DNA of 53,875 nt from Kamptonema formosum PCC 10802 (GTDB taxonomy: Bacteria; Cyanobacteriota; Cyanobacteriia; Cyanobacteriales; Oscillatoriaceae). Every line of letters begins with the position of its first letter. Position 1 is the stretch's first letter. A model generated the notes under the pieces. It ran no database searches and was not told where the DNA came from. It was given only the letters and a program-made list of their open reading frames with translations. Below, one piece after another: positions 3,608-46,537 of this stretch. A program made the position numbers and the translations under genes. The stretch is taken from assembly GCF_000332335.1 (NCBI RefSeq), contig NZ_KB235948.1, positions 3,609,386-3,663,260 of the forward strand, written 5' to 3'.

Positions 3608-3635
3608 TGGACAAAGCTTAATAATGTGATATAAT
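3608..3635 (+). promoter_or_regulatory. Sigma70-type promoter of RNA copy 1
   Basis: TGGACA (3608-3613), a 16-bp spacer, then TATAAT (3630-3635). The 10-mer GTGATATAAT that includes the -10 box is repeated exactly in front of RNA copy 3 on the other strand (44737-44746), so promoter and RNA body are duplicated together. Confidence 0.65.
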
Positions 3636-3641
3636 GCCGAC

Positions 3642-3850
3642 AGAGAATCGAGGACAGCCTTATTCCTAGATAGGTTAAGTTTTCCACTGTCCCAGTTGCG
3701 GCTTTACGCGCTTCGCGGGACTGGAATAGCGATGCACGGGATTTTCCTGAAAACTCTGTGGGATAACGCCTGTATCACTTGTAAAGGTGATAGTGCCATC
3801 GTTGCATTGTCCGGAGATTCCCGGACAAATGTCGCGTAAATGTATCAGTC
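3642..3850 (+). ncRNA. Structured RNA family, copy 1
   Basis: This copy aligns with copy 3 (44516-44730, minus) from the promoter onward, and its 3' two-thirds (3715-3850) with copy 2 (5784-5919). Visible helices are GGACAG 3652-3657 with CTGTCC 3687-3692, a CGGGA/TCCTG hairpin near 3737, TATCAC 3773-3778 with GTGATA 3787-3792, TGCA 3733-3736 with TGCA 3803-3806, and GTCCGG 3809-3814 with CCGGAC 3821-3826. The strongly conserved single-stranded block GGGATAACGCCT lies at 3760-3771 and the end is ATGTATCAGT. There is no terminator; the Fe-S carrier gene starts about 10 bp beyond, so the RNA may form its 5' leader. A HEARO/IscB-type omega-RNA is my leading identification, held loosely. Confidence 0.65.
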
Positions 3851-3860
3851 ACGCCAACCC

Positions 3861-4217
3861 ATGACACAAGCAACTCAGTCTCAAACACGGGGTATCCAGC
3901 TCACTGAAGCCGCCCAGCGGCAGATTTTCTCACTGCGGCAGAGCCAAGGAGAGGATCTCTGCCTGCGGGTGGGAGTGCGCCAAGGTGGCTGCTCCGGGAT
4001 GTCCTACATGATGGATTTTGAGAGCCTCAGCAATGTCAGGCCCGATGATGAGGTCTTCGACTACGATGGCTTCAAGGTTGTCTGCGATCGCCGCAGCATT
4101 CTTTACCTGTACGGTCTGGTTCTCGACTACAGCAATGCCATGATAGGCGGCGGCTTCCAGTTCACCAACCCCAACGCCTCTCAAACTTGTGGCTGCGGCA
4201 AGTCGTTTTCTGCCTGA
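3861..4217 (+). CDS. iscA: A-type iron-sulfur cluster carrier (IscA/SufA/HesB family)
   Basis: A 118-aa protein of the usual length for A-type Fe-S carriers, which receive clusters from the SUF/ISC scaffold and pass them to apoproteins in the cytosol. The three conserved cysteines are present: one in GGCSGMSY near residue 47 and two in the C-terminal CGCGKSF. I chose ATG 3861 ([10 protein letters not shown]) over the in-frame ATG at 3840 because the latter lies inside the conserved 3' end of structured RNA copy 1 and would add seven residues unlike the family. No strong Shine-Dalgarno sequence precedes either start. Transcription probably comes from the promoter at 3608-3635, which would put the structured RNA in the leader. 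IscA versus SufA cannot be decided from sequence alone. Confidence 0.93.
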
Positions 4218-4603
4218 TCTGACCCCCGGCAGCCGGGCGTGAGTCTTTTTCCCCCCTCGGGGAACTTCCACAGCCCGATCTTAACGTGTGACTTCAACCG
4301 GACTTACCGCTATTTATTGGTTTCGCCGCAGGCAGGCCCCGCCTGCCTTTTAATTTTTTGCCAATTTACCACACAGGCCATTTTACGGTTTCCGGTTAAT
4401 TACTCTCAAAATTTCCCGCCAGCGTCAGAGGCGATCGTCCCTGGGGCGTCCGACTGGGGAGGGATTTTGGACGGGAAAACAACTGTGGCGCAGACCGCCT
4501 TTGCGCCGGTCGGGCAATCCCAGAAACCGGGTTTCTGGCAGGTACTTCATCCAACTGAAAACCGCTATAATCCTAGCCGACCTTTTCAGCGTCTACCCAC
4601 CCT
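4218..4603. other. Intergenic region with a palindromic-repeat remnant
   Basis: No supported gene. Positions 4520-4575 carry a fragment of the AGAAACCCGGTTTCT repeat family followed by a CCAACTGAAAACCGCTATA tail. This matches the right-hand end of the family-B MITEs at 9935-10030 and 28777-28872, so it is a degraded MITE. The reading frame spanning 4239-4607 encodes a low-complexity peptide and is judged spurious. Confidence 0.6.
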
Positions 4604-5026
4604 ATGACTCAAACACCTGAAGACCTTTTCTCCACAGGCATTGAACGCTACAAAGCCGGTGAGGGGCCTTCCACCCTGATTCCGGTTTTCAAAGAAATCT
4701 GCGAGCGAGCCCCAAAAAATAGCAGCGCTTGGACTTGTTTAGCTTGGCTGTACCTGCTGGACAGCAAGCCCGCGCCGGCCTGCAAAGCGGCCCAGAAAGC
4801 CGTCAAGTGGAATGGCCAAGATCCTCAAGCGCGAGTCAACCTCGCCGTGGCCATGATCGACAGTGGCCAAAAGGGAGTGCGCCAGCACATTGAAATCGCC
4901 CAGCAGATCCTCCTAGTCTCCCCCGAATTGCGGGAAGAAGTCTTAGAAAATATTAAAGACGGATTAACCAGAAAACCCGACTGGCAGAGCTTGCAGCGGG
5001 TGCAAGCCTGGCTCTTGGAAGCGTAA
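4604..5026 (+). CDS. Small tetratricopeptide-repeat protein
   Basis: A 140-aa all-helical protein starting MTQTPEDLFSTGIERYKAGE. At least two TPR-like helix pairs are visible: residues ~35-65 (SSAWTCLAWLYLLDSKPAPA) and the following ~69-100 block (QDPQARVNLAVAMIDSGQ). The protein then continues helical to its end at AWLLEA. There is no signal peptide or membrane segment. TPR proteins act as protein-protein adaptors; the partner is not evident here. It is probably transcribed alone, downstream of the degraded MITE. This is a conserved cyanobacterial type, but I cannot attach a specific function. Confidence 0.85.
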   Translation: MTQTPEDLFSTGIERYKAGEGPSTLIPVFKEICERAPKNSSAWTCLAWLYLLDSKPAPACKAAQKAVKWNGQDPQARVNLAVAMIDSGQKGVRQHIEIAQQILLVSPELREEVLENIKDGLTRKPDWQSLQRVQAWLLEA

Positions 5027-5075
5027 GTGTTTATAACTACCCAGTTTCCGCCGGCCCCTGAAGGCTAACGGTGCA

Positions 5076-5109
5076 GTTGTATAAAATTCTTTACAAAATT
5101 TTATACAAC
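5076..5109. promoter_or_regulatory. 13-bp perfect AT-rich inverted repeat
   Basis: GTTGTATAAAATT and its exact complement AATTTTATACAAC are separated by 8 bp, 110 bp upstream of the 64-aa gene and 50 bp after the TPR gene. There is no following T-run, so it is a poor intrinsic terminator for the TPR gene. An operator, or a binding site for a dimeric regulator of the next gene, is possible. Confidence 0.5.
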
Positions 5110-5218
5110 TTTATGATAAAAAGCTAACATCTAATGATAAGATTTTGTGAACACAAGCATTAGCGATTCCTCGATCTTGTCATTCGAGGCACTAGGAAAC
5201 TACAGGAGTTAGGAGAGT

Positions 5219-5413
5219 ATGTCTGCAAACAACGTTGGGATCAAGCCCGAAACCCGCAATCACAAAGGGTTCTTCATACAGGAGGGTTCCTACAAGCTAA
5301 TGAAGATCGATGAGTCCGGCTGGGCCCTGATCTGTGTCGATGATGCGGTCTGCCACTATGTAGACCCGGATAACCTGCAAATGCCCAGCGAACCAGGCAA
5401 GGATCTCGATTGA
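5219..5413 (+). CDS. Conserved small protein, 64 aa
   Basis: Encodes a 64-residue soluble protein (MSANNVGIKPETRNHKGFF...). A strong Shine-Dalgarno (AGGAGTTAGGAGAG) lies just upstream, which supports expression and the start. It contains a compact beta-rich core (GFFIQEGSYKLMKIDESGW, then ALICVDDAVCHYVD) and an acidic tail. There are two cysteines but no metal-binding pattern. An intrinsic terminator follows at 5451, so it forms its own transcription unit, with an AT-rich inverted repeat and AT-rich promoter region in front. I do not recognise a function; an SH3-like or beta-barrel fold is only a guess. Confidence 0.85.
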   Translation: MSANNVGIKPETRNHKGFFIQEGSYKLMKIDESGWALICVDDAVCHYVDPDNLQMPSEPGKDLD

Positions 5414-5450
5414 GCCAAAAGTTATAAATGTTAAATACCTTTGCATGAAT

Positions 5451-5485
5451 GGCTGTGCCTGCCTTAGGCGCAGCCTAATTTTTTT
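5451..5485 (+). terminator. Intrinsic terminator of the 64-aa gene
   Basis: GGCTGTGCC (5451-5459) pairs with GGCGCAGCC (5467-5475) through nine pairs including one G-T. A short AA step and a run of eight T follow. Confidence 0.8.
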
Positions 5486-5550
5486 TCAGGAGAAGGGAAT
5501 AGGTATTTTTACATCCCGGCACGGGGAGAGCAGGATTTAATCCTGGATTC

Positions 5551-5580
5551 TTGACGCAAAGCAGTAGGACACGGTATAAT
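5551..5580 (+). promoter_or_regulatory. Strong sigma70-type promoter of RNA copy 2
   Basis: TTGACG (5551-5556), an 18-bp spacer and TATAAT (5575-5580). No plausible protein gene follows for 400 bp. The next signals are the structured RNA core and a strong terminator, so this promoter most likely drives a non-coding RNA. Confidence 0.75.
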
Positions 5581-5586
5581 GAGATA

Positions 5587-5978
5587 GGTCAGTCGCGAAA
5601 AAATAGCGTTAGCGAACCGTGCCGACCGCTCGACTTGAAAATAGTGTTTGATTTCCGATCCGCCTTTGAGACTTCCGACACGGTTGCCAAGCGAAACAGG
5701 AAATTGAGCTTAAAGCAGCTGTCATCGGGGCTGAGCGTGAAAGCGCTCTGGGTTTAAGCAGGTGCCAAAACACCGACCTGAAACATTCCCGAAATAGTGC
5801 TTTCGGGAGCTTCCCGAAAGCGAGTGCGGGATAACGCCTCTGCCGCCTTTATGGGCGATAGTGCCCTCCGTCACATTGTCCGGGAATGCCCGGAATAATG
5901 TCGCGTAAATGTATCAGTCTCCATTTCTGGGAGCAAGTTCAAAAGAGGTGGCTGCACTCGGGTGCAGCCACTTTTTTT
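5587..5978 (+). ncRNA. ~390-nt non-coding RNA ending in structured RNA family copy 2
   Basis: The transcript is bounded by a near-consensus promoter and a 10-bp terminator hairpin. The first ~195 nt (5587-5783) are unlike copies 1 and 3. From 5784 to 5919 it matches the family core. TTTCGGGA/TTCCCGAAA forms a near-perfect hairpin where copies 1 and 3 have CGGGA/TCCTG-type pairs. GGGATAACGCCT is identical. The next hairpin is CGCC/GGCG instead of TATCAC/GTGATA, the long-range pair is GTG 5797-5799 with CAC 5872-5874, and the last hairpin is TCCGGG 5879-5884 with CCCGGA 5889-5894. The length resembles tmRNA or RNase P RNA, but their hallmark sequences are absent. A 68-codon reading frame inside it (5551-5757) has no ribosome binding site and is not called. 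Confidence 0.65.
5948..5978 (+). terminator. Intrinsic terminator of RNA copy 2
   Basis: Ten perfect pairs (GTGGCTGCAC with GTGCAGCCAC), a four-base loop TCGG and seven T. It lies between the RNA and the convergent epimerase gene. Confidence 0.9.
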
Positions 5979-5986
5979 GAAGCTTC

Positions 5987-6913
5987 CTAACCAGACGTTA
6001 AAATTTGTTGCAAAGCTTGCTTAACAGTTGAATATTTATACTCAAAACCAGACGCTAAAGTCCGTTTGGGCAAGACTTGCTGGCCCGCCAGCACCACTTG
6101 GGCGGCATCTCCCAAAAGCGCTTCCAAGGCAAAACCGGGCACCGGCAGCCAAGAGGGCCGGTTGATCACTTCCCCCAAAACCTGGCAGAACTCAGCCATG
6201 CGGACCGGGTTGGGAGCCGTAGCATTGTAAACCCCCTGCATCTCAGGTTGGGCCAGAGCGCGCAAAATCAGGTTCACCAGGTCATCCCGGTGAATCCAGG
6301 AGAACCACTGGCGACCACTTCCCAACGGTCCGCCGGCAAACAGCTTAAACGGAAGCAGCATTTTCCCCAAAGCCCCACCCATCCCCAGAACAATGCCGGT
6401 GCGCACAATCACCAGTCGGGTGCCGGTCTGCTTTACTTTTTCCGCCTCCGCCTCCCAAACTTGACAGACTTGAGCCAGAAAATCCTTACCGGCAGGACTC
6501 ATCTCATCAAAAGTCGCGGTTTCGCTCGTCCCGTAGTACCCAATCGCCGAAGCACTCACCAGCACAGACGGCTTCGGATTCGCCCCAGCCATCGCCGCCA
6601 CAATATTTTCAGTGCCCAGCTTGCGGCTGTCCAGAATTTCTTGCTTGCGTGCCGGTGTCCAGCGCTCCTCCGCTATCGGGGCACCGGCAAGATTCACCAT
6701 CCCATCGCACCCCGCAAGCGACTGCTGCCAAGACCCCGACCCTGCCGGCGTCAAGGCCACAACGTCCAGATTCGGGAACGCCTGCGCCGGAAACACTCGC
6801 CGCGCCCGCTCTGGATTTCGGGTCAGGACCACGATTTGATCACCCTGCTCGCGCAACCGCTCCACCAAGCGACTGCCGACAAATCCTGTTGCGCCAGTGA
6901 TGGCTACCTTCAT
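5987..6913 (-). CDS. TIGR01777-type NAD(P)-dependent epimerase
   Basis: A 308-aa extended short-chain dehydrogenase of the TIGR01777/SulA-like group, common in cyanobacteria and chloroplasts. The N-terminus MKVAITGATGFVGSRL holds the Rossmann dinucleotide motif GATGFVG. The catalytic Tyr is probably in the IGYYG segment (near residue 123), followed by a DUF1731-like C-terminal tail (LPKRTLASGFEYKY...). I prefer the Met at 6913 because the glycine motif then starts at residue 7; a longer form from 6928 adds only MGNGV. The substrate is unknown; plant homologues have been tied to chloroplast division or thylakoid function, which is only a hint. It is transcribed convergently with RNA copy 2. 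Confidence 0.93.
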   Translation of the reverse strand: MKVAITGATGFVGSRLVERLREQGDQIVVLTRNPERARRVFPAQAFPNLDVVALTPAGSGSWQQSLAGCDGMVNLAGAPIAEERWTPARKQEILDSRKLGTENIVAAMAGANPKPSVLVSASAIGYYGTSETATFDEMSPAGKDFLAQVCQVWEAEAEKVKQTGTRLVIVRTGIVLGMGGALGKMLLPFKLFAGGPLGSGRQWFSWIHRDDLVNLILRALAQPEMQGVYNATAPNPVRMAEFCQVLGEVINRPSWLPVPGFALEALLGDAAQVVLAGQQVLPKRTLASGFEYKYSTVKQALQQILTSG

Positions 6914-7301
6914 AACGCCATTCCCCAACTTCGCTTAACACTTCTTAACCATCCTAAGCTGTTTCTGCCTTTTTGACAGCCGGCCCCAGAAACCCGGTTT
7001 CTTAAAGAAACCGGGGTTCTCAACAGGCAGCACCTGAAAAAAATATTAAGCCCCTATTCCCCTGTTGCCGTTACCCATTCAATTGCGTCAAGCTGGAAAA
7101 AGCAGGCAGCGCCTGCAGCCGGAAAAAATCGCAGACTCTTCCTTCCCGAACTGCAGCCCAGAAATGCCGGCGCTGAAGTGGAGCCAAAAGCTTCCTAACT
7201 AAAAAAGCGAGCCAGCAGCCAACTTAATCAGCGCCCGAATCCGCCGCAGCTCCAGAAAAAAACCCAAGCAGCCTGCTACTAAAATAGTGAGGGAAATTGC
7301 C
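6914..7301. other. Intergenic region with one palindromic repeat
   Basis: At 6987-7020 lies AGAAACCCGGTTTCTT, AA, then its near complement, a family-B hairpin core without MITE ends. The remainder is the divergent promoter region between the epimerase and the aldolase. No gene or clear -35/-10 pair was found. Confidence 0.6.
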
Positions 7302-8384
7302 ATGACAACTGCTCTACACCGGCCCACAACTATCGAGTCAATTCTGGGTGCCGAAGCCGAAGACCTTCTCACTTACAGAGCCAAAGTTTCCAAAGAGCTG
7401 CTGCACCTGCCCGGACCCGATTTTCTTCACCGGGTTTGGGCTGGCAGCGACCGCTCCCCCCAAGTGCTGCGCAGCCTCCAGCAGCTTTACTCCACAGGGC
7501 GTCTGGCTGGCACCGGCTATCTTTCCATCCTGCCGGTAGACCAGGGGATTGAACACTCTGCCGGCGCTTCCTTCGCCCCCAACCCCATCTATTTCGATCC
7601 CGAAAACATCATTAAACTAGCAATCGAAGGCGGCTGCAATGCCGTAGCCACCACCTTAGGCGTCCTGGGCAGCGTTTCCCGCAAATACGCGCACAAAATC
7701 CCCTTTATCGCCAAAATCAATCACAACGAACTGCTCACCCACCCCAACAGTTATGACCAGGTAATGTTCGCCACCGTCGAACAAGCGTGGAATTTGGGAG
7801 CCGTTGCGGTGGGCGCGACAATTTACTTTGGCTCGCCAGAATCTGCACGCCAGATTCAAGAAGTAAGCCAAGCTTTCGCGCAGGCGCACAAGCTGGGCAT
7901 GGCGACCATCCTCTGGTGCTACCTGCGCAACAGCGCTTTCAAACAGGACAGAGACTATCACGTTGCGGCGGATCTCACCGGCCAAGCCAACCACCTGGGC
8001 GTCACCATTGAGGCCGACATTATAAAGCAAAAACTGCCAGAATGCAACAATGGTTACGGAGCAGTTTCCCAAGCTGCCGGCAAGAAATACGGCATGACCC
8101 ACGACCGGGTTTACTCGGACTTGACCTCAGACCATCCCATTGACTTAACCCGCTATCAAGTGCTCAATTGCTATTGCGGGCGTGCCGGTTTAATTAACTC
8201 CGGCGGCGCTGCAGGCATTAACGACTTTGCCGAAGCGGTGCGCACGGCAGTTATCAACAAGCGTGCCGGTGGCACCGGCTTGATTTCAGGGCGCAAGACC
8301 TTCCAGCGTCCCTTTGAAGAAGGCGTCAAACTCTTCCACGCTATCCAGGATGTTTACCTTTCGCCAGAGGTGACCGTCGCCTGA
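7302..8384 (+). CDS. fbaB: Class I fructose-bisphosphate aldolase
   Basis: A 360-aa DhnA/FbaB-type class I aldolase that cleaves fructose-1,6-bisphosphate to dihydroxyacetone phosphate and glyceraldehyde-3-phosphate through a Schiff base. Recognisable blocks are [17 protein letters not shown] (~75-95), [10 protein letters not shown] (~138), the barrel strand around [31 protein letters not shown] and the phosphate-binding loop [10 protein letters not shown]. The start at ATG 7302 ([10 protein letters not shown]) has GAGGG 11 bp upstream; the in-frame GTG at 7287 adds only five residues. The gene stands alone, followed by 350 bp of non-coding DNA. In the cyanobacterial cell it would serve glycolysis, gluconeogenesis and the Calvin cycle alongside the class II enzyme. 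Confidence 0.93.
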
Positions 8385-8741
8385 GGCGGCGACAAGAACG
8401 CCCCGCACCCTCTGTTTGCCAGCCTGCCGCTGGCACACATCTTGGGCGCGGGCCACAGGGTGGAACTCTTTGGCCACTCTTTGGGTGCGCTCCCTATCCC
8501 ACCGGCACCGATGGAGGTTGCTTCCAGAGGGAACGCACCCGGCACCCCAGCGCTAAGCGCCAACAGCATTCGCCCGCGCCATCACAGGAATGTGGGTGGC
8601 TTCCTTATTTGAGTGATAAACTGGGTGCCCGCAGCACGGCACTCGAGCAAGAGTGAAGAGAAAGTGAAAAAACCGAGCCCTCCCGGCATCGTGTGGGATA
8701 GTCGGAAACGATAGAGAATTGCCGCAGTGGAGCAATTGAGC
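8385..8741. other. Intergenic region, nothing recognised
   Basis: About 350 bp with a GC-rich hairpin right after the aldolase stop (GTCGCC/GGCGAC) that lacks a T-run. Several overlapping frames on the minus strand encode low-complexity peptides and are not supported. Confidence 0.5.
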
Positions 8742-9908
8742 ATGAAACTGGCAGCACGAGTTGGTCAGGTGACACCTTCCTTAACACTGGCGATTGACGC
8801 CAAGGCCAAGGCGATGAAAGCCTCGGGCATCGATATTTGCAGTTTCAGCGCCGGCGAACCGGATTTTGACACGCCGGCGCACATCAAAGACGCCGCCAAG
8901 CAGGCGCTGGATGCTGGCAAGACCAAATATGGCCCAGCTGCCGGTGAGCTGAAGCTGCGAGAAGCCATCGCCCACAAGCTGAAAGCCGACAACAACCTGG
9001 ACTACGCAGCTGATAGCATCATCGTCACCAATGGCGGCAAACATTCTCTGTACAACCTGATGGTGGCGCTGCTCAATCCGGGGGATGAAGTGATTATACC
9101 GGCACCCTACTGGCTGAGCTATCCGGAAATGGTGACGCTAGCCGGTGGCGTGTCGGCGATCGCGCCCACCGACGAGACGACTGGGTACAAAATCACGCCG
9201 GACCAGCTGCGAAAAGCCTGCACTCCGCAGACGCGGCTGTTTGTCCTCAACTCGCCTTCCAACCCCACCGGCATGGTGTACACGCCCGATGAGATTCGGG
9301 CTTTAGCCGAAGTTGTGGTGGAGAAAGATATCCTCGTAGTCGCCGACGAAATTTACGAGAAAATTCTCTACGACGGCGCTGAACACCTCAGCATTGGCTC
9401 TGCCGGCAAAGAAATCTTCGAGCGCACGATCGTCAGCAACGGATTCGCCAAAGCTTATTCGATGACCGGCTGGCGTCTGGGCTATTTGGCCGGGCCGAAA
9501 GATTTGATTAAAGCCACCGTCACCCTGCAAAGCCACAGTACCTCCAATGTCTGCACCTTTGCCCAGTATGGCGCAATCGCGGCACTGGAAGGCCCGCAAG
9601 ATTCTGTGGAAGAAATGCGCCAAGCTTTTGCCAAACGCCGGGAAGTTATGTTAGAATTGCTAAACTCCATTCCCGGAGTGTACTGCCCGAAACCAGACGG
9701 CGCTTTCTACATGTTTCCCAATATCAGCAAGACGGGTCTGAAATCGCGGGAGTTCTGTGAGGGTTTGCTGGAATCTCAGCAGGTGGCAGCGGTTCCAGGG
9801 ATTGCCTTCGGTGCGGACGACTGCATCCGCTTGTCCTACGCGACAGATATGGCTACCATCGAGAAGGGCATGGCGCGATTGGAGGCGTTTGTGCGCTCGC
9901 GGATGTAG
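8742..9908 (+). CDS. aspC: PLP-dependent aspartate-type aminotransferase (class I)
   Basis: A 388-aa fold-type I aminotransferase of the aspartate/prephenate transaminase group (Igamma), transferring amino groups between aspartate or a related amino acid and 2-oxoglutarate. Visible motifs are [12 protein letters not shown] near residue 37, the cofactor-stacking aromatic region [11 protein letters not shown], the SPSNPTG motif, [11 protein letters not shown], and the PLP lysine in [14 protein letters not shown]. Near the C-terminus RLSYAT holds the carboxylate-binding Arg. I use ATG 8742 ([10 protein letters not shown]); a GTG at 8727 adds five residues. The gene is monocistronic by position, with a MITE immediately downstream. 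The exact substrate (Asp, prephenate or both) is not decidable here. Confidence 0.93.
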
Positions 9909-9934
9909 CGGCAAAAGGGCTGTTAAATTAATTC

Positions 9935-10030
9935 TATAGCGGTTCTCAGTTGGATGAACTATGGCCAAGAAACCCGGTTTCTTTAAGAAACCGGGTTTCT
10001 CAGTACCTGACTAATCTGAGAGACGCTATA
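9935..10030. mobile_element. MITE family B, complete copy
   Basis: A 96-bp element starting TATAGCGGTTCTCAGTT and ending with the imperfect complement CTGAGAGACGCTATA. In the centre is the palindrome AGAAACCCGGTTTCTT / AAGAAACCGGGTTTCT. The same layout is seen at 28777-28872 and partially at 24385-24448 and 52996-53068. No coding capacity. Confidence 0.8.
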
Positions 10031-10054
10031 AATAGAATACAGTGATAGGTAGAG

Positions 10055-10783
10055 TTGTACTTTATTACTGTCATCGTGTCCTTACTTACTGCAGTGCCTC
10101 CGCCAGCATCAGTCCCAGCTTTGTGGCTCCAGCTGACAGTCGTTGGAATCTGGGTGGGTGCGATATTGCTCCTAGCGGAGTCGTTACACCACTATGCCTC
10201 GGTCGATTTCGAGATTACGCGCAAGATAGTCCACATTGGCACCGGCAACGTCATCTTGCTAGCTTGGTGGCTGCAAATACCGGCATGGGTGGGGATTGGG
10301 GCGGCGGTTTTATCGAGTGCGGTGGCGCTTTTGTCCTACCGGTTTCCCATCTTACCGGGTGTCAACAGCGTTGGACGCCAGAGCTTTGGGACGTTTTTCT
10401 ATGCCGTCAGCATCGGGGTGCTGGTGGCCTGGTTTTGGCCACTGCAACAGCCCCAGTATGCTGCTATCGGGATTTTGGTGATGACTTGGGGGGATGGGTT
10501 AGCCGCTCTGATTGGCCAGCGCTTTGGCCGGCACCCCTACGAGGTCTGGGGGAGCAAAAAGAGCTGGGAAGGCTCTCTGACAATGGCTCTCGTCAGCTTT
10601 GCAGTCTGTTGCTCGATTCTGCTCGCGGTGGGGGGCAATGTTTCGGCCACTTGGCTGGTGCCGGTGGCTGTGGCTTTTGCCGCCACCGGCTTGGAAGCTT
10701 TTTCCTGGTTTGGAATTGACAATCTCACGGTGCCTTTGGGCAGTGCGGCGGTGGCTTTTTTCTTAAATCAATTCCTGCTATAA
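10055..10783 (+). CDS. Phytol/polyprenol kinase family membrane protein
   Basis: A 242-aa integral membrane protein of the CTP-dependent phytol/farnesol/dolichol kinase family. It has six to seven hydrophobic segments, the conserved RKIVHIGTGN motif near residue 56, and the nucleotide-binding block WGDGLAALIGQRFG followed by HPYEVWGSKKSWEGS. In cyanobacteria such kinases phosphorylate phytol released from chlorophyll, feeding tocopherol and chlorophyll synthesis; farnesol kinase is the other close possibility. The start is uncertain: no ATG precedes the first membrane segment. TTG 10055 (preceded by AGGTAGAG) or GTG 10076 are the choices. The gene follows a MITE directly, so its promoter may lie inside or at the edge of that element. 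Confidence 0.88.
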   Translation: MYFITVIVSLLTAVPPPASVPALWLQLTVVGIWVGAILLLAESLHHYASVDFEITRKIVHIGTGNVILLAWWLQIPAWVGIGAAVLSSAVALLSYRFPILPGVNSVGRQSFGTFFYAVSIGVLVAWFWPLQQPQYAAIGILVMTWGDGLAALIGQRFGRHPYEVWGSKKSWEGSLTMALVSFAVCCSILLAVGGNVSATWLVPVAVAFAATGLEAFSWFGIDNLTVPLGSAAVAFFLNQFLL

Positions 10784-10853
10784 GTTTTGCCGGCTGCTTT
10801 GGGATTTGCGGGAAACAGGAATTTCTCAAAGCGCCGGCAGCGTCAGCCGTCGC

Positions 10854-10895
10854 CAGAAACCCGGTTTCTCAAAGAAACCGGGTTTCTGCGCTATA
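10854..10895. repeat. Family-B palindromic hairpin
   Basis: AGAAACCCGGTTTCTC, AA, AGAAACCGGGTTTCT followed by GCGCTATAG, i.e. the core plus a shortened right end of the family-B MITE. Confidence 0.75.
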
Positions 10896-10924
10896 GAAGC
10901 CGGTGACTTTGTAGCAAAACACAT

Positions 10925-10953
10925 GCGCCGGCATGGAAAGGCCATGCCGGCGC
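10925..10953 (-). terminator. 12-bp perfect hairpin after the 49-aa gene
   Basis: GCGCCGGCATGG and CCATGCCGGCGC with a five-base loop. It lies 43 bp beyond the stop of the minus-strand 49-aa gene at 10996. The T-run on the minus side is weak (ATGTGTTTT), so a terminator or mRNA-stabilising role is likely but not certain. Confidence 0.55.
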
Positions 10954-10995
10954 AGGAATGAACTCTCGACTGTCAAAATGCTTTTCTACCTTGTG

Positions 10996-11145
10996 TCAAT
11001 CTGTCCAATGCCGTTCCTTGTTGGCTTCTCCTTCAAAAGGTTGAACTCCGACTTCCGGATATTTATCGTCGCTGGGGCTGAAGAGGCGACCGGCGGCTGC
11101 CATCACATACTTCATGGCGTCTTCAACTGATTTCGGAAGATTCAT
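10996..11145 (-). CDS. 49-aa conserved small protein, tandem copy A
   Basis: Encodes a 49-residue protein (MNLPKSVEDAMKYVMAAAGR...KERHWTD). AGGAG lies 7 bp before the ATG, which fixes the start. The N-terminal half looks like an amphipathic helix (residues 4-22). A turn-rich half follows, with SPSDDKYPEVGVQPFEG and a charged end. It is 43 of 49 residues identical to the neighbouring copy B. The substitutions are mostly third-base or conservative and the frame is intact in both copies, so purifying selection is likely. It has no signal peptide, cysteine or known motif. A 12-bp hairpin lies downstream. Function unknown; a regulator, protease adaptor or photosynthesis accessory peptide are all open. 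Confidence 0.8.
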   Translation of the reverse strand: MNLPKSVEDAMKYVMAAAGRLFSPSDDKYPEVGVQPFEGEANKERHWTD

Positions 11146-11282
11146 AAACGCTCTCCTAAACGCTGGGATTCTCTGGGTTCATCACTCTTGCAATTATTGT
11201 AAGCTTGCTGGGAGTGACTTTTGTGAAATCTACATAATTTGATAAGATTCTTCCCTACAACCGGCTGCTTTTCAACCGGGCG

Positions 11283-11432: not shown

Positions 11433-11545
11433 ACACGCTCTCCTAAACTCTCGGACTCTCAGGGTTCATCACCCCTTGCTATTATTCTAAGCTTGCCGGG
11501 AGTGACTTGGCAAAAAACTACATAATTCGATAAGATTCTCCCCCG

Positions 11546-38465: not shown

Positions 38466-38565
38466 AAGCAGCAGTTAGTTGTTCGGGTGTACTTTTTTAT
38501 GACTTCTTAAGTGTGCTGAATTAACAGTTAAAATTTTCCCACCTTTGACTCATCTTATAGTAGAA

Positions 38566-38729: not shown

Positions 38730-38831
38730 GAGTCAAGTTTAACTCCCCTTCCCCGCCAGCGGCAAGGGGGTTGGGGGGTGGGGTTTCCGCCCGCGCCCGA
38801 CGGAATTCCCACCGGCACACTTCTCCCCGAT

Positions 38832-39451
38832 TCAAGGATACAGCTTTCCGCAGCCACCCAGAAGTACCAGCCACACGGCCACAACGATCCAGTGAATCAC
38901 CACCGGCGGCCAAAGAGAGCCGGTGTGCAGATACGCCACACTGCGGGCAACCCCCAAAAGCGCTGCGGAGAATAGGAAAAGAGGAGTCCTGAAAATGGTG
39001 TCGTGTCGGGCTGCGAAAATATTCAGCGGATGGTATACCACAAAAAGCGCCTTACCTGACACAACCCCAAAGCCACTGCGCCCCGGGGGAAGCATTTTCT
39101 GAGGGGTGAGGGAGGAGCAAAACCCGAAAAAAAAGCTCCTCTGTTTCAATCCCGGTTCCAAAGATTCGCTGGCCAAAAATATGCTCCTCCTACCCCCGGC
39201 TGAAATCATTATTGCATTTATTTGGGCTTCCTCGCACAACCGGGATGCTCCGCCACAGACACCCCGGGCATCAGAAAAGAAACCGCCAGGATATTGGCAA
39301 CCGCTGGCCAGGATTTTATAACCTCAACGTGGATAAAACCCAGCTTCAACCCAACCAGCAGCGCAATCAGCGCATAGATCCCCAACAGAGCAGCTGGCAC
39401 CAGCCAGCCGGCGGCACATGGAATCGTTGAAACAGCAGCACCGGCATTTTT
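38832..39451 (-). pseudogene. Decayed CPBP (CAAX-type) intramembrane protease
   Basis: Several frames on the minus strand carry pieces of a CPBP protease. 39400-39218 encodes a membrane segment (LLGIYALIALLVGLKLGF). 39239-38832 encodes the C-terminal part with LFVVYHPLNIF (the conserved His region) and YLHTGSLWPPVVIHWIVVAVW. The EExxxR motif that should precede is unrecognisable and at least one frameshift lies near 39220-39240; a further one is likely near 39430. The gene is therefore inactive. It is adjacent to, and divergent from, acyP. Confidence 0.7.
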
Positions 39452-39578
39452 CGGCGAGCGCCCCGGCAGCCAGCAAATTGGCTAAATATCCAGAAACCAT
39501 CACACAGCAATCTTTGCAAAACTTTACTTAAGCCTTAAAATCGAAAGGAAAGCAACCAGAGATCCAGACCGCACGCGA

Positions 39579-39872
39579 ATGCAGAACCCATCACCGCCGC
39601 AGCCAGTCCGCGCCCGCGTTACCGTTTCCGGGAGAGTGCAAGGAGTCGGCTATCGGTTTTCAACCTTGGATGAGGCGAGCCAGCAGGGAGTCACCGGCTG
39701 GGTACGCAACCTTTCCGACGGAGGTGTGGAAGCAGTCTTTGAAGGAACCAGAGAAGATGTGGAAGCCATGATACGCTGGTGTCACCGGGGGCCCAGATCT
39801 GCTATCGTCAAAAATGTTACCGTTGAGTGGGAGGAGCCGGAAGGGCTGCCGAAGTTTGAAATTAAGCGGTAA
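39579..39872 (+). CDS. acyP: Acylphosphatase
   Basis: 97 aa, the standard length. The phosphate loop VQGVGYRF contains catalytic Arg26, and Asn44 lies in GWVRNLSDG, the two residues needed to hydrolyse acyl phosphates such as 1,3-bisphosphoglycerate or carbamoyl phosphate. A short Pro-rich N-terminus ([10 protein letters not shown]) precedes the ferredoxin-like fold. yidD follows after 26 bp on the same strand, so the two may be cotranscribed. The start is the first ATG after an AT-rich promoter region. Confidence 0.95.
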
Positions 39873-39898
39873 ACTCGTTCCAGCCGCAATTAATTCTA

Positions 39899-40177
39899 AT
39901 GAGTGAGAGGAGGTCGCAGGTGAAAGTATTGCTCGTGGGGCTAATTCGCGGCTATCGAATGTTCATTTCACCCCTGTTTCCCCCCGTCTGCCGGTTTCAG
40001 CCCACCTGCTCCCAGTACGCTCTGCAAGCCATCGAGCGCTTTGGCCCGTGGCACGGCGGGTGGATGGGCATTCGGCGAATTTTGCGGTGCCATCCTTTCC
40101 ATGCCGGCGGCTACGATCCTGTCCCCGAAGTTATTGAAACAGCCGCAGAAAAAACACGAGACGACAGCACCCCCTGA
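39899..40177 (+). CDS. yidD: Membrane protein insertion efficiency factor YidD
   Basis: 92 aa with the family signature: N-terminal amphipathic helix ([20 protein letters not shown]), [36 protein letters not shown] and YDPVP. The three cysteines characteristic of the family are present. YidD assists YidC in inserting inner-membrane (here also thylakoid) proteins. It lacks its usual rnpA/yidC neighbours, as is common in cyanobacteria, and sits behind acyP. The C-terminal ~15 residues are variable. A 26-bp hairpin array starts right after the stop codon and may serve as its terminator. Confidence 0.95.
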
Positions 40178-40187
40178 CCCATTTCCG

Positions 40188-40415
40188 GGTTTGTAGTTGG
40201 GCTAAAGCCCAAAAGTTCGTAGTTGGGCTAAAGCCCAAAAGTTCGTAGTTGGGCTAAAGCCCAAAAGTTCGCAGTTGGGCTAAAGCCCAAAAGTTCGCAG
40301 TTGGGCTAAAGCCCAAAAGTTCGCAGTTGGGCTAAAGCCCAAAAGTTCGCAGTTGGGCTAAAGCCCAAAAGTTCGCAGTTGGGCTAAAGCCCAAAAGTTT
40401 GTAGTTGGGCTTTCG
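40188..40415. repeat. Tandem array of 26-bp hairpin repeats, inverted
   Basis: Eight complete units and one partial of GTAGTTGGGCTAAAGCCCAA plus linker AAGTTC, period 26. It is the reverse complement of the 1-232 array unit and, like it, abuts the 3' end of a gene. Confidence 0.95.
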
Positions 40416-40455
40416 CCCTACCGGCGCGGCTCTGACAAAACTGAACGAAGATTGC

Positions 40456-40556
40456 TATAGCGCGTCTAAATCCTTTGGACAATTCCTGTAGGGGCAGTCC
40501 CCCCCTGGCTGCCCCGACCGGCGGAGGTTGCGCCAATTATTTAGACGCGGTGTATA
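40456..40556. mobile_element. MITE family C
   Basis: A 101-bp element with ends TATAGCGCGTCTAAAT and ATTTAGACGCGGTGTATA. The inner 12 bp (GCGTCTAAAT) are perfectly inverted; the middle is GTAGGGGCAGTCCCCCCCTG-like. No coding capacity. Confidence 0.7.
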
Positions 40557-41577
40557 TTATGGCACCCTATATGGGAAAGCTATCTAAAAATGTAAATTTT
40601 TCTAGAACGGTTCTCCTGGAGGTGTTGTAGGGCGCTGCACAGCAGCCCCGGATGATAGGTTTGCAGGGGTAGGCCAGCCACGGAGACAGATCTTGTGCCG
40701 GCGGACACCCGCAGGGGGATTGCCCCTGCAGGTCTTTCGGGACAGCCACAGCGCGATGGCCCCTACAAGAGTGGCGAAATTCTTCCCTCCCTTTTTGAGA
40801 GGGGCAAGGGGGGGGAGAAGCTATTGCGCAGTTAATTTGTACTGTCGCCCACTGTTTTATTCCCTGCCTTACATTGAAAACGAGGCTCTGGAGGCTTCGC
40901 ACACTTGCTACAATGAGCAGATTAAAAGTTTAGCAGCTTTTCTGCAGCTGACTCAGCTGAAATCTGCGGTAGAAGAGCGGGGCAGCTTCAGGCGGGTGGC
41001 GGGGAAGGTCACGGAAAGCTCAGGACGGTAAGATATCAGACATAAAAGCAGGATTTTTAGGCGGATGGCACAGAAATGGAGGTGAAAACGGATTCGACCG
41101 GCTGGCAACAGGACAGAGGCTTTCCGCGAGAAGGGGGAAACAAATTGCTCCCTTCTCACTTCAGTCGTTGCAACTTGCCCATTGCGCCCCTAACCCCCCG
41201 CCCCTGCAGTGTGGCAGGTTCGGCAACCCTCGATCGAGTCCCGGACGGCTTGAGTGCCCCAGCCACACTGGAAACTGGCGGGTTGGGAGAGCGTCTCGCT
41301 CAGCATGAACAGTAATGTGGAGCTATATTTCAGTGAGTTGTGGGAAACAGATGTCAGATAAATTGCGGCCAGTTGCTGCCAGCCCAACCCAATTTGCGAG
41401 AAATTGGGTCCTTGACGCTGCAATTCAAGCCGAGTCATGGTATTTTGCAACGAGCGTCTTAAGTTGTGAGAAGCCTCCGCAGCAGGGGGCGGGATGTGGG
41501 GGTGCATTGCTCTATCTGATTAATTTTCCCCAAGGGAAAGACTATTCGCGCTAGCTAGCGAACAAGGAGAAGCTGTT
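40557..41577. other. Kilobase without a recognised gene
   Basis: This holds repeat-like tracts (GCAGGGGGATTGCCCCTGCA near 40711; CCCTCCCTTTTTGAGAGGGG near 40787) and AT-richer DNA upstream of amiC. Open frames on both strands are short, overlap each other and look random. The amiC promoter must lie near the right end; AAGGAGAAG precedes its GTG start. Confidence 0.5.
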
Positions 41578-43398
41578 GTGAGTGTGAGATTCCACTGGCT
41601 ACTGCCCAGTTTTTCTACCGTATTTTTGCTGTCATCTCCTGCCGAAGCAGCGAACCTGCAATCTTGGCGGTTTGACGCAAATGCCAACCGGCTGTACATT
41701 ACCACGGACGCCGGCGTTCAACCCCGAGCCCAGCTGATAAGCAACCCGACTCGTTTGGTGATTGACTTGCCCGGTGTCAGGCTCAACCGCCTCCCAGTGA
41801 AGCAGCCGGTGGGAGGCGCGATAGCGAAAGTGGAGGTGGCGCAGTTTGACCCGCAGACCACCCGCCTGGTGATTGAACTGAGCCCCGGTTACACCCTAGA
41901 CCCCCAGCAAATCCTGTTCCGGGGGGCAACTGCGAAGCAGTGGACTGTACAGCTGCCCACTCCCCAGCGGGTAGCGGATGCCTCCAGTCTTTCCCCCCTG
42001 GAAAATACAGGACAGGCACTGGCCCGGGAGACGCCGGCAGACCAGGCAGGAGCGCTGACTCGGCTGGAAAATGTGCGGGCTACCCCAGATGGGCTGTTCA
42101 TTCGCACCAGCGGCCAGCAGCCAGATATTCAAGTGCAGCGGAGTCGAGATCGCTCTACTGTCAGCATAGACCTGCAGGGGACAGCCGTTAATCCCCAGGT
42201 GCAAGGGCTCGATTTGGCAGTCAATAGCAATGGCATCGCACAAGTGCGAGTCAGCCAGATCCAAAGCTCACCGCCGGTGGCTCGCGTCACGCTCAATGTC
42301 ACCAACACCAGCGCCGACTGGCAGGCAACGCCCACCAACTTGGGCGGAGTGATCGTCTTGCCTACGGACCCAGGCGCAGGCGGGGGCTCCACCATTGCCA
42401 GCCAGCCACAATCCTACGGCACCCAGCGTGACGGCACCATTGCCACTCAGCCACAATCCTACGGGAGGCAGAGTGACACTCAACTGGCCACCATTGAGTC
42501 TGTCGAGCTGGTGGGCGGCTCGCAATTGCTGATCAAGACAGACGGTCCGTTCAGTTACACCAGCGACTGGGACCCGTCATCCACCTTCTACGAGATTAGA
42601 ATTCCAGCGCGACTCGGCCAGCGCGTCAGAACCCCCCGGACAAATTTCAGAACTTTTGCCTCAAACGTGCGGGTGAGACAGGCCGATGCGCAAACTGTCG
42701 TCATTCAAGTCCAACCGGCCTCCTGGGCGCAGATTACCCAAATCAACCAGCCGGGCAGCCAAATGCTAGTCCTGCAGCTGCAACCGGCAGGCAGCGTCTC
42801 CCAGCCTGCTCCCACAGCCAATTATCCCTCTTCCCAGTCCCCCCGCATTCCCAGCGGGCGCGTCGTGGTGGTCGTCGATCCCGGACATGGAGGGGGGGAT
42901 GTGGGTGCGGTGGGCATTGGGGGCCTGCAAGAGGCGGACATTGTTCTGGATATCTCCCGACAGGTGGCGGCACTGCTGGAGCAACAGGGCGTGCAAGCCG
43001 TTTTGACCCGACAGGATGACCGGGAAATCGAACTGGAACCGCGGGTGCAGATGGCGGATCGGGTGAGTGCCAATTTATTTGTCAGCATCCACGCCAATGC
43101 TATTGATATGAGCCGCCCTGATGTCAATGGCATCGAGACGTATTTTTACGACAGCGGAGATCGCCTGGCCAGCACCATTCACAACAGTGTCCTGCAAGCC
43201 ACCGGCGCTCGCGACCGCCGGGTGCGGCAGGCCAGATTTTACGTCTTGCGCAAGACTTCTATGCCGGCTGTTTTAGTGGAAGTCGGTTTTGTCACCGGCG
43301 CTGAAGATGCGCCCAGACTGGCCAATGCTGCTTACCGGCAGCGATTGGCAGAAGGGATCACTCGCGGCATCCTCCAGTACATTGGGCAAAATAGATAG
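41578..43398 (+). CDS. amiC: N-acetylmuramoyl-L-alanine amidase with AMIN domains
   Basis: 606 aa from GTG 41578 (AAGGAGAAG upstream). A signal peptide ends near SPAEAA. Two AMIN domains (~28-125 and ~300-400) direct the enzyme to the envelope. A repeat-rich linker lies between (QPQSYGTQRDG / QPQSYGRQSD). The C-terminal Amidase_3 domain (~425-605) has all zinc and catalytic residues: His in DPGHGGGD, Glu in LQEADIVLD, His in SIHANA and Glu in VLVEVGF. It cleaves the lactyl bond in peptidoglycan and in filamentous cyanobacteria is needed for septal nanopores and cell-cell communication. murI follows after 68 bp, making a wall-metabolism pair. Confidence 0.96.
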   Translation: MSVRFHWLLPSFSTVFLLSSPAEAANLQSWRFDANANRLYITTDAGVQPRAQLISNPTRLVIDLPGVRLNRLPVKQPVGGAIAKVEVAQFDPQTTRLVIELSPGYTLDPQQILFRGATAKQWTVQLPTPQRVADASSLSPLENTGQALARETPADQAGALTRLENVRATPDGLFIRTSGQQPDIQVQRSRDRSTVSIDLQGTAVNPQVQGLDLAVNSNGIAQVRVSQIQSSPPVARVTLNVTNTSADWQATPTNLGGVIVLPTDPGAGGGSTIASQPQSYGTQRDGTIATQPQSYGRQSDTQLATIESVELVGGSQLLIKTDGPFSYTSDWDPSSTFYEIRIPARLGQRVRTPRTNFRTFASNVRVRQADAQTVVIQVQPASWAQITQINQPGSQMLVLQLQPAGSVSQPAPTANYPSSQSPRIPSGRVVVVVDPGHGGGDVGAVGIGGLQEADIVLDISRQVAALLEQQGVQAVLTRQDDREIELEPRVQMADRVSANLFVSIHANAIDMSRPDVNGIETYFYDSGDRLASTIHNSVLQATGARDRRVRQARFYVLRKTSMPAVLVEVGFVTGAEDAPRLANAAYRQRLAEGITRGILQYIGQNR

Positions 43399-43466
43399 GT
43401 GTTCGCTCAGGCGACAACCCGTGGGTTTCAACTGATAACTAAAGAAGTCACAACTCAGAAGACGGC

Positions 43467-44339
43467 ATGAATTCATCTAGCATCCTCTATCCCGAATCTT
43501 TCAGTGAGGAACCATCACGGGCCCGAATTGGCATTTTCGACAGCGGCGTGGGCGGGCTCACTGTTCTCAGAGAGCTCTACCGGCAGCTGCCCAGTGAATC
43601 TATCCTTTACTTTGGGGACACGGCGCGGCTCCCTTACGGAACTCGCACTCCCGGTGAGATTTTGCAGTTCGTGCGCGAGATCCTCACCTGGATGGTGCAG
43701 CAGGGGGTTAAAATGGTGATTATGGCCTGCAACACCAGTTCCGCTCTGGCCCTGGAGGCCGTGCGCTCTGAGTTCAGCGTCCCCATTTTGGGGGTGATCC
43801 TTCCCGGTGCCCGCGCTGCTGTTGAGAGAGGTCGCCGGATTGGGGTGATCGCCACCCCCGCCACGGCTGCCAGCAATGCCTATCGGCGGGCTATTTTAGA
43901 GATGGACCCGGCGGTCGCCGTCTGGCAAGTCGGCTGTCCGACGTTTGTCCCCCTGATCGAACAAGGCCGCATCGATGACCCCTACACCTGCGAAGTGGCG
44001 CGAGAGTATCTCGCGCCACTCCTGCAGCAGCAGATTGACACCCTGATCTATGGCTGCACCCACTACCCCCTCTTGGGGCCGGTGCTGCGCTCGATTGTGC
44101 CGGACAGTGTGCGGCTGGTCGATCCGGCTGTGCATGTGGTCGCCGCCGCCGCCCGCGAGCTAGAGCTGCTCGGACTGCGCAACACCCGCTCCCCCCTGCC
44201 CACTCGATTCGGTGTTAGCGGCAGCCCGCAACAGTTTGCCCAACTGTCCGTGCAGTGGCTCGGACATACGCCAACGGTTGAAAAGGTGTCTCTGCCGGCT
44301 GCACTCTGCGGGCCGGTGCCTCTAGAATCTGGGGAATAA
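43467..44339 (+). CDS. murI: Glutamate racemase
   Basis: 290 aa. It converts L- to D-glutamate for peptidoglycan in the cytosol. The paired catalytic cysteines are in MACNTSSALA and GCTHYPLLG; Asp in IGIFDSGVGGLTV and the GDTARLPYG substrate loop are intact. The first ~17 residues (MNSSSILYPESFSEEPS) are a variable extension. It is cotranscribed most likely with amiC. In many cyanobacteria sds follows murI closely; here 2.2 kb of repeat and RNA sequence separates them. Confidence 0.96.
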   Translation: MNSSSILYPESFSEEPSRARIGIFDSGVGGLTVLRELYRQLPSESILYFGDTARLPYGTRTPGEILQFVREILTWMVQQGVKMVIMACNTSSALALEAVRSEFSVPILGVILPGARAAVERGRRIGVIATPATAASNAYRRAILEMDPAVAVWQVGCPTFVPLIEQGRIDDPYTCEVAREYLAPLLQQQIDTLIYGCTHYPLLGPVLRSIVPDSVRLVDPAVHVVAAAARELELLGLRNTRSPLPTRFGVSGSPQQFAQLSVQWLGHTPTVEKVSLPAALCGPVPLESGE

Positions 44340-44477
44340 GCCCCTGCCGGCAGCGCCTTGGGGACGCTTGTCCGCTGTTGCTCCCTCCCGCCAAAACCAT
44401 CCGCCTGACCGTTGAAACCCCAGTGCCGGCTGTCCTTCAACGTCTCGACGGGACACCCGTTCCCCCACGACAGCAAC

Positions 44478-44513
44478 GAGTGACAAGAAAAGCGGCTGCT
44501 TTTTTCTTGTCAC
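44478..44513 (-). terminator. Intrinsic terminator of RNA copy 3 (and possibly murI)
   Basis: GTGACAAGAAAA and TTTTCTTGTCAC pair over 12 bp around GCGGCTGCTT. T-runs exist on both strands, so it can end both the minus-strand RNA and leftward-to-rightward transcription from murI. Confidence 0.8.
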
Positions 44514-44730
44514 CTGTCACTGATACATTTTCCGACTTATTCCGGATATTACCGGACCGTGCCACGATAGCACTCTCCCCGTCAAAGATGATAGAGGCGT
44601 TATCCCGCAAAGCTTTCAGGAAAATCCCAGGCATGGCCATTCCCGTCTTGCCATAGCATAAACCCGCTATTGGGACAGTGGAAAATTCAAAGAGCCACTA
44701 TCTGGCCAATAGGGCTGTCCTCAAATCTCT
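44480..44730 (-). ncRNA. Structured RNA family, copy 3
   Basis: On the minus strand, GTGATATAAT (-10 box at 44737-44742) is followed by a ~215-nt body matching copy 1 throughout. The 5' helix GGACAG/CTGTCC (plus-strand 44715-44720 and 44673-44678) is unchanged, GGGATAACGCCT is identical, and the end ATGTATCAGT is shared. The long-range helix is TGCC/GGCA (44630-44633 with 44560-44563), against TGCA/TGCA in copy 1. The last hairpin is TCCGG/CCGGA (44541-44556). Unlike copy 1 it is followed by a good terminator and no gene, so it is a free RNA. The -35 box is weak. Confidence 0.65.
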
Positions 44731-44739
44731 GTGTGTATT

Positions 44740-46537
44740 ATATCACGCTCTCCGGCTTGGCCTGTGAAAATCCGGGATTAAATTTTCTCTCTCGTTCAAG
44801 GATCTGGCGAGGGATTTTTGTCCACAGCCTGCGGTCGCGGGGGCAGGGGGCTGGAGCCTGCTACTGCCCGCGCACACGACTCAGGCTCCCGACATGAGGG
44901 ACAATTTTACACTCTAGCGTTTCTTTGAGCAACACTCAACAAAACATAAATCGTTAACAAATAACCCGTGGCCAGAATCGGAATAATCAAAGGAATATCA
45001 TGGTAAGTCATAGTACGGCCCGTGCGTTGTAAGGAGGGAGACGTTAATCTAAATCCACGCGAAAAAGGTTCTCAGCAAACTGAACCATGCACCGGCTCAA
45101 CATGCTGTCTTGCCACAGGAACCTGCGGAAACATGGCTGTCTCCGGCAAATCTATCTGCCCATTGCCTAAAAGCCAGAAACACTTGCCCGGGTACCGGTT
45201 CCTCGCTGTGGCCCAACCTCGGACATCCGAGTCGCTCAACTCGATCGAGGGAGCGCTTCCTGACCTGAAACACCTCACAAACTGTCCAATCCAGTTGGGA
45301 CGGCTATCATTTCCCCCCCCACACTGAACTTGACCCTCAATCCGGCAGTCATTCCCACGACAGTCACGCTTGGGGCGGAAGCCGCTGGACTGAAAGCGGA
45401 GAGAGTTGGCTGCTGTCCTCTGGATCTGGAGTGCCCGTTTTTTATGCCTAATGGCCAGGAACGACGGCGAAACCGGCAGGCCAAGGGCCGCAGCGCCAGC
45501 CCCCAACCTCTTGCCGGCGTTGGGGCCAAAGGATTTTAAGTTAGCCGAAATCTTGAGATGCGCCGGTGCTGCATCTCCACCTTGAACGGCCATCCTCCAA
45601 ATACTCTGGCTTCAACCCGGTGTGCCCGGTTAAGCTGCGGGCTGCTGTTTTCCGGACTGGTTCGAGCATTGAGAAGTTATGCGTTTGCCCAAAGCAGGTA
45701 ATGCATTCCCTCTCACACTCAAGCCAGCCAACTCCGGAGGTTTTCCAGCCCTCGCTTTACCGCAGGGCGGTAGGCGACGGGTAGTTAACAGGCCGTTCTG
45801 TAGTGCCTGTAACTTGCGCGCTGATAAATGTATGGAATTTTTGAAATTCTTACCCTTTAAGATAACACATGGTGTCGCGCTTTTCCAAGCCTTTGGAACC
45901 ATAGCTTAACAATTCTACACAACTGGCGCGGAAGCGGCTGGAATGTCCCAGGCGCTTGCTGTTGCTGCTGCTGACCGGCAGAAAACAAGGTCTGGCAAAA
46001 GAGAGTGTAACAGATGTTGGCAGGGAGAATTGTGCTGCCTATTACAAATGTTACAAATTATACTCATGTGAGAAGTTTCACGGAGGGTAGGGGGGCGACG
46101 TCGGTGGCGGCAGGGCCAGCCCCCGTGGCCGCCCCTGCGCCGCTGGGCGCTGGCCGCGTCCAAAGCTCGTTTTGGCATAAACTGGGCCGCGTTAATAGGG
46201 GTGCGAAAGGCTCTCAATAGCTAGGCGGCAGGAAAAACCGCTATACGGCAGGGGAAGACCGTGCGTCGGGCCTTTTGCCCACAGTCTCTATCAAAAGGAA
46301 GAGAAAGCCGGCACCGGCTGGCTCAGGCCCGGTCTGAGAGAGGCTTCCGGGGGGCGGGCAGCAGTGGGTGCCGGTGGGAGGGGCACCGGCGACAGGGGGT
46401 GAGCCGTTGAAATTGTCCTGCAAAGCTGGAGTGGGACGCTTGGCCTTTCAAACAAACCTTTGCTATCCGAGACGGTTAGCTTAAAATAAAGACAATATAT
46501 GTAAACTTTCTTAACTAACGCCTGAGTCGGCCCATCC
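44740..46537. other. 1.8-kb region without a recognised protein gene
   Basis: Apart from the possible 34-aa peptide there is no convincing gene. A ribosome-binding-like AAGGAGGGAG at 45031 is not followed by a start codon. Mixed short frames (for example 45022-45327 plus, 45072-45593 minus) are Pro/Arg/Cys-rich and unlike any family I know; they may be remnants of lost genes. The sds promoter should lie just left of 46538; AAAATAAAGACAATATATGT is nearby. Confidence 0.45.
44907..45011 (-). CDS. Possible 34-aa single-span membrane peptide
   Basis: Frame MTYHDIPLIIPILATGYLLT plus a short tail ending AQRNARV. The central ~20 residues would make one membrane helix with a basic C-terminus, the look of small photosystem or NDH subunits, but I do not recognise it as any of them. 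No Shine-Dalgarno precedes either candidate Met, so the call is tentative. Confidence 0.3.
   Translation of the reverse strand: MTYHDIPLIIPILATGYLLTIYVLLSVAQRNARV

Follow-up and report, generated by a model that had tools for sequence, protein, structure and literature searches.

The bacterial pro-Fanzor family is thought to be the origin of the eukaryotic RNA-guided nuclease Fanzor. A 53,875-nt stretch of DNA from the filamentous cyanobacterium Kamptonema formosum PCC 10802 (NZ_KB235948.1, positions 3,609,386 to 3,663,260, forward strand; this whole stretch is referred to as the window) carries three copies of a short element, and on sequence grounds these are almost certainly non-autonomous miniature IS607-type transposons of the pro-Fanzor TnpB lineage. 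HEARO (IscB omega-RNA) is likewise a dispersed guide-RNA scaffold, but it serves another nuclease and has its guide at the opposite end from the right-end RNA (reRNA) of TnpB. IS605-type palindrome-associated transposable elements (PATEs) with guide RNAs have also been described.

Comparisons with published systems refer to the available portions of four reports. Cyanobacterial IS607 elements with a pro-Fanzor TnpB (PMC10711439) are alike in their serine-recombinase tnpA, in the DPG and E-alt residues of TnpB and in the stems and pseudoknot of the reRNA, whereas the miniatures described here lack a working tnpA or tnpB. ISXfa1, from the same report, differs in its core dinucleotide (GG there, AG here) and in its motif (GGG there, RRGAG here), and its reRNA pseudoknot was reported as needed. 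IS607 TnpBs with a RAGATH-18-derived reRNA (PMC11061315) share the IS607 type and have AGGAG or GAGGG as target-adjacent motif (TAM), but their reRNA lies outside the coding sequence while here it overlaps the tnpB end. The Haloquadratum PATEs (PMC3119063) are also non-autonomous, internally deleted derivatives of a tnpB family which outnumber the full elements, but they are of IS605 type and were described by their ends and palindromes, not as carriers of guide RNAs. A TnpB gene drive on plasmids (PMC11870625) works by the mechanism proposed below, with a guide from the insertion site and cutting of empty copies, but it concerns IS200/605 rather than chromosomal miniatures with TnpB proposed to act in trans. 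Miniatures of tnpB-family elements (PMC3119063) and pro-Fanzor elements were already known, and no description of reRNA-only IS607 miniatures was recognised by title or abstract in the open-licence literature searched. What is new is the combination, reRNA-bearing IS607 pro-Fanzor miniatures which far outnumber the nuclease and often lie at gene starts.

In a sister Oscillatoria genome (G002), the flanks abut for 3/3 window copies, with 2, 2 and 3 shared bases, and corrected element boundaries (3585-3848, 5531-5917 and 44788-44520) were derived from these empty sites. The elements and the motifs to their left are as follows.

3585..3848, plus strand: copy 1, complete 264-nt miniature element with ATGTATCAG at its right end; G002 has the exact empty site
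5531..5917, plus strand: copy 2, complete miniature element of 387 nt which retains more of tnpB; exact empty site in G002
44520..44788, minus strand: copy 3, complete miniature element of 269 nt; 3 bases shared at the G002 empty site, left edge assigned by rule
3580..3584, plus strand: AGGAG motif with the core AG, TAM-like and Shine-Dalgarno-like, left of copy 1; retained in the G002 empty site
5526..5530, plus strand: GAGAG motif left of copy 2, with the core AG; the G002 empty site has CAGAG
44789..44793, minus strand: GAGAG motif left of copy 3, with the core AG; the G002 empty site has GACAG

For copy 1, the empty site in G002 reads GGCACAAGGAG followed directly by TGACCC, and the occupied site reads GGCACAAGGAG, the element and then TCACGCC, with an ATG 12 nt on. 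The core dinucleotide AG is common to both element ends, and no target duplication was seen beyond it, as expected of IS607. Immediately 5' of the element (n = 29), the five bases were GAGAG in 13 cases, AGGAG in 6, GGGAG in 4 and six other words once each; this pre-insertion motif is close to the IS607 TAMs given above.

The initial annotation had described the three copies as a dispersed family of structured RNAs, and both shared blocks were located in all of them: GGGATAACGCCT at 3760-3771, 5828-5839 and, on the minus strand, 44606-44595, and AATGTATCAG at 3839-3848, 5908-5917 and, again on the minus strand, 44529-44520. A search of the same genome for GGGATAACGCCT followed by ATGTATCAGT returned four sites, three of them in the window and the fourth (L001) at the 3' end of a tnpB, where GGGATAACGCCT encodes R-D-N-A (partly read by eye). 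The absence of coding potential claimed at first must be given up, as the block is by origin the coding 3' end of tnpB, although the window copies have it out of frame. With this 171-nt tnpB end as blastn query, at least 41 matches were obtained in the 8.6-Mb genome (40 of 70 candidates were scored), one of them spanning 23 nt. Trained on 42 right ends, a covariance model matched 60 places in the genome, the few weakest at tnpBs of a subfamily approximately 40% identical. The abundance of the family is far above chance level. The underlying alignment, A2, comprises 42 of the 43 distinct right ends; the insertion-broken L064 was omitted, and L057 and L072 were identical to others. A further alignment, A3, was built from 88 chosen sources.

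In nearly every copy the right end reads AAATGTATCAG and is followed by sequence unique to that copy; changed bases in this end were seen in L045, L050, L060, L061 and L075. A recognised left end lay within 620 nt in 29/44 copies, which are miniatures of 262-565 nt, while the remaining 15 either are longer or had no left end found. Long copies are ordered, left to right, as left end, serine-recombinase tnpA, tnpB and right end, with tnpA remnants in L077-L079 and a -10-like stretch in the left end of L077 and L079. The -10 region reported for copies 1 and 3 was confirmed (GTGATATAAT is common to both). Their common 5' sequence, which the initial annotation found odd, is the element's left end, followed by tnpA in longer copies. 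As read from sequence, the two ends of the element have been fused by an internal deletion, and the tnpB 3' end, which forms the right end, doubles as a pseudoknotted reRNA scaffold.

The open reading frame (ORF) of L078 matches NCBIfam guided_TnpB at 133.4 bits (cut-off 100), and its residues 357-531 fit the published pro-Fanzor pattern (PMC10711439), with DPG in RuvC1 and a glutamate six residues before the first CxxC. This predicted TnpB carries the DPG/E-alt signature of pro-Fanzors, and D164, E303 and D338 were invariant in 13 sequences. Its closest solved chain by profile is 9b0l (129.1 bits), the TnpB-like protein L79, which we take to be a viral Fanzor2; the next chain scored 61 bits and ISDra2-type TnpB entries 42.7. 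L078 alone in the genome covered the whole query uninterrupted, L077 being split by an assembly gap, so that the 60 matches of the RNA model compare with one uninterrupted TnpB of the same subfamily and one gap-split TnpB. Putative guide loci are far more numerous than nuclease genes. Three further long TnpB ORFs, approximately 40% identical, occur in the genome. An uninterrupted TnpA of 197 residues with MerR and Resolvase domains lies at L154:1495-2088, and in the full relatives TnpA is a serine recombinase with a MerR-type helix-turn-helix and a resolvase domain, as in IS607. An IS200/IS605 element with Y1 TnpA was considered and rejected: eight Y1 matches were found in the genome, but the tnpA beside tnpB is a serine recombinase. 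Two side observations concern tnpB genes. L077 and L079 contain 100-N runs (assembly gaps) within tnpB with repeated sequence on either side. Another TnpB lies in the window in pieces on the minus strand (1947-2822 and 2809-3189); it looks broken, and matches OrfB_IS605 at 44.2 bits (cut-off 30.5) and guided_TnpB at 65.6, under the cut-off of 100.

Conserved stems and a pseudoknot at the right end, as in TnpB reRNAs, were found with the features below. Insertion occurs at AG behind the purine-rich motif, so that the 3' flank, which is unique to each copy behind ATGTATCAG, occupies the guide position; a guide length of 20 nt was assumed.

3714..3848, plus strand: predicted reRNA scaffold of copy 1 with stems (model R1, 126.5 bits)
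5783..5917, plus strand: predicted reRNA scaffold of copy 2 (model R1, 124.9 bits)
44520..44654, minus strand: predicted reRNA scaffold of copy 3 (model R1, 99.1 bits)
3849..3868, plus strand: putative guide of copy 1, unique flank past the right end, containing the ATG of the next gene (3861)
5918..5937, plus strand: putative guide of copy 2, unique flank
44500..44519, minus strand: putative guide of copy 3, unique flank
3762..3765, plus strand: pseudoknot half 1 of copy 1 (GATA, helix 2 loop), covarying in relatives
3843..3846, plus strand: pseudoknot half 2 of copy 1 (TATC, 3' end), covarying in relatives

Single folds of copies 1 and 2 were more stable than shuffles (z -2.2 and -4.9). RNAalifold gave 15 pairs and little covariation on the 42 copies, and the fold of one copy that carries tnpB was therefore used instead. 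Applied to the 42 own copies, this fold paired 88.8% of cells, with 13 doubly changed against 5.4 in shuffles. Among 92 matches (89 distinct) from this and other genomes, double changes were found in 33/37 pairs and 419 cells, compared with 92.4 cells after shuffling and 70-96 after sliding; these figures come from a model-fitted alignment in which relatedness was not removed. The stems covary strongly, and the terminal hairpin of the initial annotation corresponds to helix 5, which covaries in relatives. The long-range pair it had proposed (TGCA/TGCA, GTG/CAC and TGCC/GGCA) was not upheld: the three versions fall in different A2 columns, and the nearest helix (helix 2, 10 pairs) had no pair changed on both sides in the 42 copies. 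GATAC in the helix 2 loop and GTATC at the 3' end pair with each other, and in relatives they become GCAAC/GTTGC, GCTAC/GTAGC, GATTC/GAATC, GATAG/CTATC or GATAT/ATATC; with these compensatory changes, the two invariant blocks first noticed are the halves of a pseudoknot. It was perfect in 70 of the 92 matches and four-of-five in 12, and double changes in 4/5 of its pairs were equalled by 0/500 shuffles. This RNA, unmatched by Rfam in these searches, now has a covariance model and a pseudoknot supported by covariation. Within A2 columns 20-28, GCGATCGC, presumably the HIP1 word, replaces lower helix 1 in some copies (e.g. L046, L060, L063, L069), with the frame shifted and the stem broken.

No Rfam family reached its gathering score in the window. 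At E<=5, seven sub-gathering matches were returned for 3500-6050, none within copies 1 or 2 and none HEARO, and for 44400-44900 a single match (E 1) lay across the left end of copy 3 and was not HEARO; RAGATH-18 gave no match in the Rfam searches. The HEARO/IscB identity suggested at first draws on the occurrence of a dispersed structured RNA in a filamentous cyanobacterium, but with the HEARO model unmatched, the scaffold overlapping tnpB and the variable flank on the 3' side, we give it next to no credence. Equally far-fetched is a regulatory RNA family that stands alone and has no link to transposons: the starts are promoter-like and the window copies have no intact ORF, but the tnpB origin and the mobile insertion with empty sites speak against it. 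The RNA belongs to a dispersed OMEGA-type guide RNA family, as the initial annotation had surmised in broader terms; its fallback of an undescribed RNA holds as regards Rfam, while its kind is known, an IS607-type TnpB reRNA.

The explanation which best accounts for these data, with a probability of roughly 0.8, is a mobile miniature element together with a proposed guided mechanism. The sequence shows mobile miniatures whose reRNA-type scaffold is followed by a 3' flank specific to the insertion, as well as uninterrupted TnpA and TnpB genes elsewhere in the genome. The serine recombinase TnpA would move the miniature in trans, and a left-end promoter would transcribe scaffold and guide. The few intact TnpBs may then bind miniature RNAs and cut those chromosome copies which still have the empty site, with repair off the occupied copy retaining or spreading the element. 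The occupied locus would escape cutting because ATCAG, not RRGAG, precedes the guide. Filamentous cyanobacteria have many chromosome copies. Guided cutting by TnpB in trans with miniature RNAs is a step we infer tentatively, at slightly less than even odds. In its most extended form, one trans-acting pro-Fanzor nuclease would be served by approximately 50 guide-RNA genes which record their own Shine-Dalgarno-like insertion sites, often in front of genes, giving a multi-locus gene drive across several chromosome copies with new gene leaders as a by-product; this we regard as rather unlikely. These data suggest that elements of the lineage nearest to Fanzor can lose both proteins and still multiply as little more than their ends and a guide RNA. 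If active, the system would separate guide and nuclease in a pre-CRISPR setting and would provide a natural case in which to test whether TnpB drives homing on chromosomes.

Several observations weigh against the guided miniature. At the copy 3 empty site the base at -3 is C, not G, as in the occupied right end, which weakens the idea of self-protection; copy 3 also lacks a -35 (the promoter scan gave zero sites there), and its fold was no better than shuffles (z +0.25). The tnpA was interrupted in all three long copies read, and 10 of 92 pseudoknots were neither perfect nor four-of-five Watson-Crick. These points sit beside a serious alternative, to which we give appreciable weight though less than even: that the miniatures are hitch-hiking relics moved by TnpA alone, the reRNA being a passenger unused by TnpB whose structure persists through the youth of the copies or upkeep by tnpB-bearing parents. 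Helix 1 is disrupted in about one third of the 42 copies. In 36 distinct own miniatures covariation is weak, at 11 doubly changed cells versus 5.3, and their pseudoknot shows no compensatory change. From the sister genome 20 copies were fetched and 19 located, 6 of them at a site common to one of the 44 own copies, and at these six shared insertions the reRNA was 95.1% identical, as against 95.2% downstream and 96.5% internally (left end 94.9%, left flank 91.5%); slower reRNA evolution was thereby rejected, the reRNA being kept no better than its surroundings. Conservation of the guide at 119/120 bases is suggestive only, as guides overlap gene starts. Against the relic explanation, 98.6% of pseudoknot cells are paired in the 36 distinct miniatures, and every A2 copy has a full-length scaffold, albeit in a sample biased by having been found through that similarity.

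A further explanation, which we consider improbable, is that the genes behind the elements have co-opted them as promoters, leaders or start codons. The features which bear on it are listed here.

3608..3635, plus strand: promoter-like stretch of copy 1 (TGGACA, 16, TATAAT), 11/12 consensus bases, a consensus match only
5551..5580, plus strand: promoter-like stretch of copy 2 (TTGACG, 18, TATAAT), 11/12 consensus bases, a consensus match only
44737..44742, minus strand: -10-like TATAAT of copy 3, by eye
3840..4217, plus strand: ORF of the Fe-S_biosyn (IscA/SufA) family (PF01521, 71.3 bits)

The promoter-like left ends of copies 1 and 2 favor co-option, the scan of copy 1 finding one site where 0.4 are expected in shuffles. 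In 14/44 copies an ATG followed by 70 or more open codons lay within 15 nt, compared with 18/545 RRGAG sites in the window, 566/15,194 sampled window positions and 2/107 AGGAG sites alone; with GTG and TTG starts included, the counts were 16/44 copies and 81/545 RRGAG sites. The excess is likely caused by purging of insertions inside genes, for which the comparison is not controlled. In copy 1, ATGTATCAG is in frame with the ATG of the Fe-S_biosyn ORF, and 9/15 copies were in frame where 5 are expected, but as evidence for a selected start codon this was rejected as too weak and uncorrected. Copies 2 and 3 had no ATG ORF of at least 70 codons within 25 nt, which also counts against co-option.

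Model matches were found in 16/40 genomes and, class-wide under stricter filters, in at least 18/291, this genome included in both; 11 chosen genomes had 2 to 60 matches each, the maximum being this genome. In other genomes, 12/41 matches are preceded by an ORF whose pattern is pro-Fanzor-like. Arthrospira sp. PCC 9108 (L214-L218, other loci) has 21 model matches and 27 TnpB pieces, several tnpB rows containing one TAA stop. TnpBs 35-48% identical occur in Thiomargarita, Parabeggiatoa and another gammaproteobacterium (L245-L250, L252, L253, L257); the three aligned gammaproteobacterial proteins retain DPG and E-alt and lack the zinc-ribbon cysteines. At L095:2469-2546 on the minus strand, approximately 0.8 kb past a full element, a Group II intron is matched with 60.1 bits (gathering score 40). 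Within the window, a palindromic repeat of approximately 50 nt (CCCAGAAACCGGGTTTCTGG, around 4522-4574) has dozens of matches in G001 and G002.

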